This document shows positions 30,099 through 47,669 of a DNA stretch of 64,000 nucleotides, piece after piece (within the stretch, counting starts at the first letter, position 1; the number at the start of each line of letters is the position of its first letter). The position numbers were made by a program, and so were the translations under genes. The notes beneath the pieces were generated by a model, which saw only the letters and a program-made list of their open reading frames with translations, ran no database searches and was not told the origin of the DNA. This DNA is from Bacteroides sp. (lineage in GTDB: Bacteria; Bacteroidota; Bacteroidia; Bacteroidales; Muribaculaceae), in NCBI GenBank assembly GCA_014801225.1, contig JAAVEO010000009.1, forward strand, positions 46,199 to 110,198, written 5' to 3'.

Positions 30099-30173
30099 GC
30101 CCCATTCGTCTATCGGTTAGGACGAGAGATTTTCATTCTCTAAAGAGCAGTTCGACTCTGCTATGGGGTACCA
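30099..30173 (+). tRNA. tRNA-Glu (anticodon TTC), CCA encoded
   Basis: Cloverleaf: acceptor GCCCCAT/ATGGGGT, anticodon arm AGAGA-TTTTCAT-TCTCT, T-loop GTTCGACTC, 3' ACCA. Confidence 0.95.
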
Positions 30174-30582: not shown

Positions 30583-30654
30583 GCCCCATTCGTCTATCGG
30601 TTAGGACGAGAGATTTTCATTCTCTAAAGAGCAGTTCGACTCTGCTATGGGGTA
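30583..30654 (+). tRNA. tRNA-Glu (anticodon TTC), CCA not encoded
   Basis: 72-nt body identical to 30099-30170; followed by CTT instead of CCA. Confidence 0.94.
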
Positions 30655-30737
30655 CTTCCCCAATCCATCCTATCCCGAGGCCACCATCTCATCCCCTGAG
30701 AGGTGGCCTCATCTTTTTTCCTTTAATCATTCCTACA

Positions 30738-39856: not shown

Positions 39857-40552
39857 ATGAAGAATAATATACTGAAGTTTCTGAAAAAGCTCCGCCTCAA
39901 TAATAATCGCGAGTGGATGCATGAGAATGAAGATTTATATAAAGCCATAAAAGCCGAGCGCGACCTCACCGCTCAGCGATTCATCGATGCCATAGCCACA
40001 ATCGATCCGGAAGCCGCCGGTTATCCTGTGGAGAAAAGTGTCTACCGTCTTATGCGTGATGTGCGGTTCTCCCACGATAAGACTCCCTACAAGACGCATA
40101 TCGGTATCTTCGTATGTCCTCCGTTGGGTAAGAAATCCCTGCTGTCCGGATATTACCTTCATCTCGAACCCGGCAACTGCCTCCTCTGCGGCGGCAACTA
40201 CGCCCTCCCCTCCAAGCATCTTGCCGTAATCCGCAACGAGATACGCGACAATATCGAAGAATACATTTCCATCGTAGAATCCGAAGACTTCAAGGCCTTC
40301 TTCCCTACTGTGGGCGATATGCCTTTGAAGACCGCCCCCAAGGGGTTTGACCGCGATTGGGAGTACATTGACTATGTCCGTCCCCGCGAATTCTGTGTGA
40401 CTCTCCGTCTCCCCGATTCTTTCTTCGACACTCCCGACTTCCCGGAGCGTCTTATCCCGGCCCTCACTCAGATCAAACGCTACAACGACTTCATCAACTT
40501 CCCCCTCACCGAATCCGGTCTCCCCCTCCTCCGCCCCTCCACGCGCCGCTAA
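39857..40552 (+). CDS. DUF2461 family protein
   Basis: ILKFLKKLRLNNNREWMHENEDLYKAIKAE, YRLMRDVRFSHDKTPYKTHIGIF, GYYLHLEPGNCLLCGG. Confidence 0.9.
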   Translation: MKNNILKFLKKLRLNNNREWMHENEDLYKAIKAERDLTAQRFIDAIATIDPEAAGYPVEKSVYRLMRDVRFSHDKTPYKTHIGIFVCPPLGKKSLLSGYYLHLEPGNCLLCGGNYALPSKHLAVIRNEIRDNIEEYISIVESEDFKAFFPTVGDMPLKTAPKGFDRDWEYIDYVRPREFCVTLRLPDSFFDTPDFPERLIPALTQIKRYNDFINFPLTESGLPLLRPSTRR

Positions 40553-40879: not shown

Positions 40880-40911
40880 TTTGGATAATTCAATAGGTTG
40901 TTGTATTTTTG
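40880..40911 (+). promoter_or_regulatory. Bacteroidota promoter for the structured RNA
   Basis: TTTG 40880-40883, N20, TATTTTTG 40904-40911. Confidence 0.75.
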
Positions 40912-40916
40912 CTTTT

Positions 40917-41235
40917 GATTTCACGCCGTCCGGGTGAAGATGCGCAAGTAATCGACATGGGCGGGAGTTGAAACAACACATATAGGAAGCGTGTATTTGC
41001 GCTTGTTCTTGGCCTCTTGAAACTACCACTTTCAAACCCATGCCAGGGATGAAGCAGCGATAGATGCTCATGGGTATGTTTAGATACCGGCCGATTTATT
41101 ATGCCGTGAAGGCATGATAAAGTCGGCTTATCTGCATATCGGCGTGAGGTCTGCGTTGCTCGTCTGCATGGGTGGGCTGTGGTAGGCCTCAAGAGGCATG
41201 ACGAGCAACGGATAAGGCTCTCACGCTTTCTTTTT
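40917..41235 (+). ncRNA. Predicted structured noncoding RNA, ~310-320 nt, upstream of a small HTH gene
   Basis: Consensus promoter, multiple perfect stems (TTGAAA/TTTCAA, ACCCATG/CATGGGT, GCCGA..ATGCC/GGCAT..TCGGC, GCGTGAG/CTCACGC enclosing CGTTGCTCGTC/GACGAGCAACG) and terminal T-tract at 41227-41235. Confidence 0.7.
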
Positions 41236-41285
41236 ATAGTTTATAATCAGAGTCCGGAGCCGATTCTGAATGGTTTGAAGATACC

Positions 41286-41516
41286 GTGCATATTGGTAAT
41301 AGAATTAGGGAAGTATTTGAGCAGTTGCCCAAGCATGATGATATAGAATGGTTTGCCAAGCAAATTCCCTGTACAAGCCGCCACCTATATCGTATTTTCC
41401 GTAAAGATAACATAGATCTGATATTGCTGCAACGGATTTCCATAATCCTGCAATACAATTTCTTCAAAGACCTGTCCTTGGAATGTGACAATTTAATAGA
41501 AGATTCAGTTCAGTAA
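41286..41516 (+). CDS. Small XRE-like helix-turn-helix protein
   Basis: HIGNRIREVFEQLPKHDDIEWFAKQIPCTSRHLYRIFRKDNIDLILLQRISIILQYNFFKDLS; GTG start. Confidence 0.7.
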   Translation: MHIGNRIREVFEQLPKHDDIEWFAKQIPCTSRHLYRIFRKDNIDLILLQRISIILQYNFFKDLSLECDNLIEDSVQ

Positions 41517-46531: not shown

Positions 46532-46960
46532 ATGGCAGATAGATTTGATGAAATTGGAACTCTTTTCTTCCGGCGGAGAAAGGAACTTGGACTAACTCAA
46601 GAACAATTGGGGAAGAAAGTCGGTGTGACTAAATCTGAGATTTCTAAGATTGAGAATGGTAGAGGTATCACTTTCTCTACAATCAATAAGTTGTCAGAAG
46701 CTTTAAGGGTATCGACACGCGTAGAATTAAAACCGACTGAATCAGTTTCGTCAGATGTAATTCATTATATAGTGATGAGTCTCGGTTTATTTGCTCGTAA
46801 ATACAAATTGACAAAAAAGGAGGCTTGTAATTATCTGTCACGTTTCAAGGGTCTTGAATTTTCAATCCGTAATTATGAAGCAGAGCATCAGCTCTCACTT
46901 CAGGAGTGTGTAGAGGATATGGCTGCTATCTGTCAAAGAAATGGAGGTGCGGTGTCATGA
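46532..46960 (+). CDS. XRE-family HTH regulator (first gene of TA-like operon)
   Basis: RKELGLTQEQLGKKVGVTKSEISKIENGRGITFSTINKLSEAL. Confidence 0.88.
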   Translation: MADRFDEIGTLFFRRRKELGLTQEQLGKKVGVTKSEISKIENGRGITFSTINKLSEALRVSTRVELKPTESVSSDVIHYIVMSLGLFARKYKLTKKEACNYLSRFKGLEFSIRNYEAEHQLSLQECVEDMAAICQRNGGAVS

Positions 46961-47430
46961 TTCTATATCACGGTTCAAATCAGCCTATAGGCAACATAGA
47001 TTTGTCGCAAGGCAAGAAATTCAAAGATTTCGGTCAAGGTTTCTACACTACCCATTTAAAAGATCAGGCCATTTATTGGTCAAGGAGAATTGCAGATCGC
47101 TTTGGAGGGGTCCCTACAGTTACAGAATTTGAGTTTGATCTTGATGCTGCCATTGCTGCGGGATTAAATGTGAAGGTATTTGATCTGCCGGATAAGGAAT
47201 GGGCATTGTTTGTAATGGCAAACCGCCGGCAGGATGGAGAAGAATTTCATCATGACTATGACATTATCATCGGTCCGGTAGCCGATGACAATATGGCTCG
47301 TCTATTCGGACTCTATGATATGGAAATCATTGACCTTGATGCTGTGGTAACCGGACTGATTTACAAAGACCTCAATTCTCAATATTTCTTTGCCACAGAA
47401 GAATCGCTAAAATATATAAGAAGGGTATGA
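46957..47430 (+). CDS. DUF3990 family protein (putative ADP-ribosyltransferase-fold toxin)
   Basis: MILYHGSNQPIGNIDLSQGKKFKDFGQGFYTTHLKDQAIYWSRR; ATG at 46957 overlaps upstream stop (ATGA). Confidence 0.78.
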   Translation: MILYHGSNQPIGNIDLSQGKKFKDFGQGFYTTHLKDQAIYWSRRIADRFGGVPTVTEFEFDLDAAIAAGLNVKVFDLPDKEWALFVMANRRQDGEEFHHDYDIIIGPVADDNMARLFGLYDMEIIDLDAVVTGLIYKDLNSQYFFATEESLKYIRRV

Positions 47431-47669
47431 AACAGCCAAACAATAATTTTGATTTCCTTGTGGAATACATTACTACTCGGGTCGTAGAGTGGATTATGCG
47501 TGACCAAGCTCTTGGTCTTGAGGAAGCGTTACTTCTGTTTCATAATTCAGAGACTTTCGACAAACTATGCGAGAAGCGCACAGATCTCTATATAGAGAGT
47601 CCGGCATACATATATGAATTGTTAACAGAGGAACTACGTAGAGGAACTCTTCGCGGATTAACCGAATAA
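47427..47669 (+). CDS. DUF3791-like small protein (putative antitoxin/partner)
   Basis: 80 aa, overlaps the DUF3990 stop (ATGA); DUF3990/DUF3791 neighbours recur in Bacteroidota. Confidence 0.65.
   Translation: MKQPNNNFDFLVEYITTRVVEWIMRDQALGLEEALLLFHNSETFDKLCEKRTDLYIESPAYIYELLTEELRRGTLRGLTE

Follow-up and report, generated by a model that had tools for sequence, protein, structure and literature searches.

Several known regulatory RNAs resemble the element described here. Terminator/antiterminator riboswitches combine a long structured leader, an intrinsic terminator before the start codon and a competing upstream strand, and they share with it conserved unpaired bases and many unlinked copies. 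T-box, TRAP/ANTAR and other factor-dependent attenuators likewise choose between terminator and antiterminator in the leader, with an external deciding factor being possible in our case too, and kissing-loop riboswitches (guanidine-II) hold a loop-loop contact within a conserved structure. The element lies at about 40918–41235 of a 64,000-nucleotide (nt) stretch of Bacteroides sp. (Muribaculaceae; GCA_014801225.1, contig JAAVEO010000009.1, positions 46,199–110,198 of the forward strand), called the window below. It is a member of an undescribed cis-regulatory leader RNA family in Bacteroidales that has no Rfam match. From riboswitches this family differs in matching no Rfam class, in having downstream genes without a common pathway and in a 5' half that mimics the whole terminator hairpin; from T-box and TRAP/ANTAR systems, in the lack of an Rfam match, in that no protein-site repeats were seen and in a regulon far wider than one pathway; and from guanidine-II, in being a leader of ~320 nt whose three-segment loop pairing involves the terminator loop.

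Among structured RNAs reported from Bacteroidetes, Bacteroidales-1 (RF01693), Bacteroides-1 (RF01694) and Bacteroid-trp (RF01692) (Weinberg 2010; PMC2864571) are Rfam families, and none of them matches the window element or 12 homologous loci. Palindromic terminator-like candidates of ~80–132 bp (HMP2_4205, HMP2_1065 and HMP2_1032) were reported near TPR, RuvA and TonB genes (Fremin and Bhatt 2021; PMC8040213). That paper describes no leader, kissing or switch, and the candidates are set apart from our family by description only; one of them could be a fragment of the new leader, or overlap it in part. Rfam 15 returned nothing for the window element at gathering score, nor at E up to 5, and nothing at gathering score for the 12 further loci. 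A literature search limited to open-access papers turned up no description of the family. The first-pass annotation of this DNA, made from the letters alone, had proposed a structured RNA not described before that has a promoter and a terminator of its own, and this proposal is strongly supported. The dense structure it noted is far beyond chance: 40917–41234 folds at −145.4 kcal/mol on the + strand (z = −10.0; z = −4.8 on the − strand).

Conserved layout and competing folds

The search for homologs yielded a large Bacteroidales family with unambiguous covariation. Its copies share a layout that runs from a TAnnTTTG promoter through ~325 nt of leader to an intrinsic terminator, behind which a start codon follows in the same orientation. 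Of 183 copies, 147 have TAnnTTTG 50–105 nt ahead of the conserved core (3.5% in shuffles), at the place where the promoter TTTG-N20-TATTTTTG had been read in the window. The terminator, recognized earlier by its nested stems and TTTCTTTTT, is equally well founded: in the 115 diverse copies on which helix statistics were counted, pairing reaches 99% in its outer and inner stems and 99.8% in the apical stem. A co-oriented ATG open reading frame (ORF) follows in 163 of the 174 copies with enough flank (among 189 distinct copies), with the start codon mostly 35–50 nt past the terminator. In the window the small gene expected ~50 nt downstream does begin there, 50 nt past the U-run. TAnnTTTG occurs in the interval between terminator and start codon in just 2 of 178 copies, i.e. 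there is no second promoter. Since the promoter lies upstream of the leader, the downstream gene should hardly be expressed except via terminator read-through. It appears from this arrangement that the leader is part of the 5' untranslated region (UTR), transcribed with the gene from a single promoter.

Across the 115 copies the terminator loop pairs with the loop of hairpin 1 in three covarying segments, D1, K and D2. Paired cells amount to 90.6% (62.5% shuffled) and doubly changed cells to 558 (164 shuffled), and the covariation score is 0.712 against 0.162 ± 0.008 in shuffles, slid versions all remaining at or below 0.11; this test is only partly independent, because the segments were found on 29 sequences and then counted on 115 that include their close relatives. 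K occurs in several complementary types, among them CUACCAC/GUGGUAG, CUGGCA/UGCCAG, UUCGCA/UGCGAA and CUGGUA/UACCAG. For six copies of the window's genome, own loops pair at −33.2 and crossed ones at −16.8 kcal/mol; therefore the contact is made in cis. The first-pass annotation had paired ACCCATG with CATGGGT (41036/41069); its 5' segment instead pairs with the terminator loop at 41168–41173, where 96–98% of cells are paired and many double changes are seen. The hairpin that it had placed at ~41090–41127 is real and variable in sequence. The surrounding region, P4, folds better than shuffles (z averages −3.6 and is below −1 in 96% of copies), and its base helix gives z −6 in a swap test (swap tests, here and below, treat copies as unrelated, with no relatedness correction). 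Helices of the aligned copies contain many G-U pairs, which together with the strand bias in folding argues that RNA, not DNA, is the functional form.

The same terminator strands have alternative partners in the leader. In the swap test of the transcript 5' end (segment A) against the terminator 5' arm (segment B), own pairs reached −22.0 and permuted pairs −18.4 kcal/mol (z −14), the negative control pairing giving z = 0.4. In 135 of 140 copies the best A:B duplex occupies half or more of the B bases that the terminator requires. Leaders with CCCCACG, CCCCGCG or CCCCGUG, for example, have the matching terminator arms CGUGGGG, CGCGGGG and CACGGGG. At the start of the core, AAGCGU (segment E) is complementary to ACGCUU of the terminator 3' arm (segment C), and their outermost pair changes on both sides (A-U in 90, G-C in 11). 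As a whole, the 5' half of the leader looks like an imperfect antisense version of the terminator hairpin. A pairing predicted to exclude the terminator thus has evolutionary support, by swap test and overlap for A:B and in part for E:C. As to the spacer behind the terminator, its own-pairing signal with the C region is weak (z −3.9), and no signal was seen for its pairing with segment B (z 0.4) or with the transcript 5' end (z −0.9). Many copies carry a small GCC...GGAG...GGC-like element in this spacer (window 41236–41285 and equivalents).

We consider it likely, on these comparisons, that the element is a cis-acting transcription attenuator, i.e. a riboswitch-like leader with two mutually exclusive folds. 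RNA polymerase would start near 40918 and transcribe the ~320-nt leader. In the OFF fold local hairpins would form and B:C would make the intrinsic terminator upstream of the start codon. For the ON fold, A would capture B while the 5' half of the core zips onto the terminator hairpin through E:C and the extended loop pairing; the terminator could then not form and transcription would continue into the gene. The hairpin 1 loop would meet the terminator loop in cis, a contact that is likely to seed the exchange of folds, and the folds would in this way control read-through. In forced folding, where kissing and co-transcriptional kinetics are ignored, the antiterminated fold had the lower energy in 91 of 92 copies, the mean difference being 14 kcal/mol. 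Folding order or a bound factor must therefore favour the terminator, and we infer a kinetic attenuator in which the outcome depends on a signal at the 5' half. That signal, a small molecule or a protein, might set the fold choice at the conserved linker and the UUUA loop of P1, which are candidate signal sites. Within the linker U41061 and G41063 are conserved in 100% and G41066 in 96% of the 115 copies; to call it a binding site is a guess. Against the attenuator it counts that E:C is nearly invariant, with covariation mainly at one pair, and that the leader RNA could also act after termination, as a released fragment.

A broader proposal is only somewhat favoured, namely that the leaders form a new class of riboswitches or factor-sensing attenuators across Bacteroidales, in which one signal governs up to ~17 unlinked and largely uncharacterised accessory genes per genome, and in which a 5'-half antisense mimic of the terminator exchanges strands between hairpins after loop-loop contact. 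If so, the family would rank with the more widely distributed cis-regulatory RNAs in gut Bacteroidales, and it would tie seemingly unrelated, mostly unannotated genes into a shared regulon. The signal that switches dispersed accessory genes (surface repeat proteins, phage-defence genes, sigma-like and LytTR regulators, small secreted proteins) would become testable, and a natural regulated 5' UTR would be on offer for gut commensals.

Downstream genes and other readings of the leader

The genes behind the leader fall into 105 families, 77 of them singletons. Pfam matches comprised 66 families in 106 downstream proteins against 158 in 106 upstream neighbours, so the downstream set is enriched in poorly known genes. 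BspA-type leucine-rich-repeat proteins are the commonest family (18 of 163 copies). The other copies in the window's genome precede a sigma-70 region-4-like protein, an HKD/SNF2 helicase, a LytTR protein and hypotheticals. Helix-turn-helix (HTH) genes of the window type stand behind just four known copies (the window, L070, L249 and L257), and the 76-aa HTH-like protein of the window, which has no match in a Pfam search, is 30% identical to the HTH_26-type protein behind L249. With HTH genes so rare among 105 families, the idea that the HTH gene is the specific partner of the RNA had to be given up. Of the three options in the first-pass annotation, a leader/attenuator was the right kind, an RNA-protein module with the HTH gene is rejected, and a trans-acting small RNA (sRNA) is disfavoured.

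That last option, a free-standing trans-acting sRNA ending at its own terminator, with the downstream gene as a bystander, is improbable. The promoter and strong terminator would suit it, and a terminated product of ~318 nt is expected. However, the co-oriented start codon at a short, fixed distance in nearly all copies, ahead of so many gene families and with no promoter between, speaks for a leader; the genes behind it would lack a promoter of their own, and the pairing is copy-specific in cis.

Attenuation by a leader peptide, in which ribosome stalling on a translated short ORF would pick the fold, is quite improbable as well. It would fit the terminator/antiterminator layout, and there are AUGs in the conserved core (GAUGAAGC, AGAUGCC). 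However, short ORFs are as frequent in shuffles (0.97 versus 0.96 shuffled) and no frame preference is seen in the lengths; in aligned copies the first AUG is often directly followed by UAG and elsewhere missing, and one-base indels break the frame. A conserved leader peptide was therefore rejected. Two antisense ORFs spanning the region (64 and 100 aa) were considered and rejected as well, as they have no Pfam match and homologs show indels of any length.

A network in which terminated leaders pair in trans with the leaders of other genes of the same cell is a very improbable reading. Because kissing loops come in a handful of types some cross-pairing is possible, and one pair in the window's genome reaches −30.6 kcal/mol across copies. 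On average, however, pairing in cis has about double the strength, and the flanking segments D1 and D2 are specific to each copy.

A defence-gene regulon was also considered for the downstream set and rejected: PADLOC matches (ZorA, QatA, HKD+Snf2, PD-T4-3) are no commoner there than in the upstream control neighbours. One sub-group of leaders (L040, L045, L052, L077 and L120) has a divergent terminator arm (CGUGGGG/CUCCCG) and is followed by HKD/SNF2 helicase genes, which fit a candidate defence model of PADLOC. At L175:4621, L178:2324 and L250:5355 the leader is followed by a short protein that combines a twin-arginine-like leader with a Cys-rich tail and may be a peptide precursor.

Distribution and copy number

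A DNA search of 61 related genomes found related elements in 25, all of the window's genus and often with several each. Alignment of 29 copies gave a conserved core of ~270 nt, and a covariance model built on the 3' domain was used for surveys of the family and order. Many of the genomes are metagenome-assembled, and ORF calls were mechanical. In the window's family the model detected the element in 267 of 297 genomes and 28 of 30 genera, and several other families of Bacteroidales gave strong matches; in a phylum sample of 297 genomes only the window's own genome matched. Exact motif matches in named records came from Muribaculaceae, Duncaniella, Paramuribaculum, Muribaculum and Barnesiella, and also from Phocaeicola oris, Xylanibacter caecicola and Palleniella intestinalis. 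The window's own genome, which is incomplete, has 7 copies by a more sensitive count; five other genomes of its family have 13–20 matches each, some of them being a second, opposite-strand match at a place already matched. Where copies were counted, a genome holds about 7 to 17.

That the family is a repeated mobile DNA element with imperfect inverted repeats and no RNA function, resembling a miniature inverted-repeat transposable element (MITE) or an invertible promoter, is barely credible: it is multi-copy with inverted-repeat halves, and the terminator model weakly matches the opposite strand too, but the copies in the window's genome are so diverged that a DNA search with one recovers none of the other six, their position relative to promoter and start codon is fixed, G-U pairs and compensatory changes are present, the plasmids and phages searched do not contain the element (its motif was found in one viral contig), and near-identical copies inserted regardless of genes, as in a MITE, were not found.

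Features of the locus

The unit sits between a DUF2461 gene and the 76-aa ORF, and the leader is about 318 nt long in this copy, with its start placed near 40918 by inference from the promoter. Coordinates are given in Table 1. The complementary pairs TTCAC/GTGAA and GCGCAA/TTGCGC were read in the window copy alone. The 5' arm of P1 is segment E, with ACGCTT of segment C as its alternative partner.

Table 1. Parts of the leader in the window and genes of the locus
Feature	Coordinates	Strand	Remarks
DUF2461 gene	39857–40552		upstream neighbour
Bacteroidota-type promoter	40880–40911	+	TTTG 40880–40883, N20, TATTTTTG 40904–40911
Leader 5' domain	40918–40977	+	segment A UUUCACGCC 40919–40927, complementary to terminator stem 5' arm (segment B)
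P1 hairpin	40987–41004	+	AAGCG/CGCTT; loop with conserved UUUA; 84.9% paired in 115 copies
Hairpin 1	41006–41049	+	P2 stem UUCUUGGC/GCCAGGGA, 97.5% paired; short P3 GAAA/UUUC
Hairpin 1 loop segments	D1 41014–41018; K 41023–41029; D2 41036–41041		partners in terminator loop
Conserved linker	41050–41072	+	consensus about GAAGCAACGGUAGAUGCC
P4	41073–41140	+	conserved base GGUAUG/CAUAUC below hairpin of non-conserved sequence
Covariance model match	41136–41239		over terminator; 96.2 bits
Intrinsic terminator hairpin	41142–41226	+	B GCGTGAG 41142–41148 with C CTCACGC 41220–41226
Terminator inner stem	41156–41162/41202–41208		TTGCTCG/CGAGCAA
Terminator apical stem	41174–41177/41186–41189		GGGC/GCCU
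Terminator U-run	41227–41235	+	TTTCTTTTT; also present in aligned copies
Spacer, terminator to start codon	41236–41285	+	no promoter; often small GCC..GGC-like element
Small HTH-like gene, 76 aa	41286–41516	+	GTG start at 41286; predicted to be governed by this leader copy
BspA-clustering protein, 1289 aa	42351–46220
Toxin-antitoxin-like cassette	46532–47669
tRNA-Glu (TTC) genes	30099–30173; 30583–30655

Further downstream, past the HTH ORF and a 234-aa ORF, the window encodes a 1289-aa protein that falls into the cluster of BspA-type leucine-rich-repeat proteins. A HTH_3+DUF3791 protein, a DUF3990 protein and an 80-aa ORF are consecutive and resemble a cassette of toxin-antitoxin type. The two tRNA-Glu genes of the window are ~480 nt apart.
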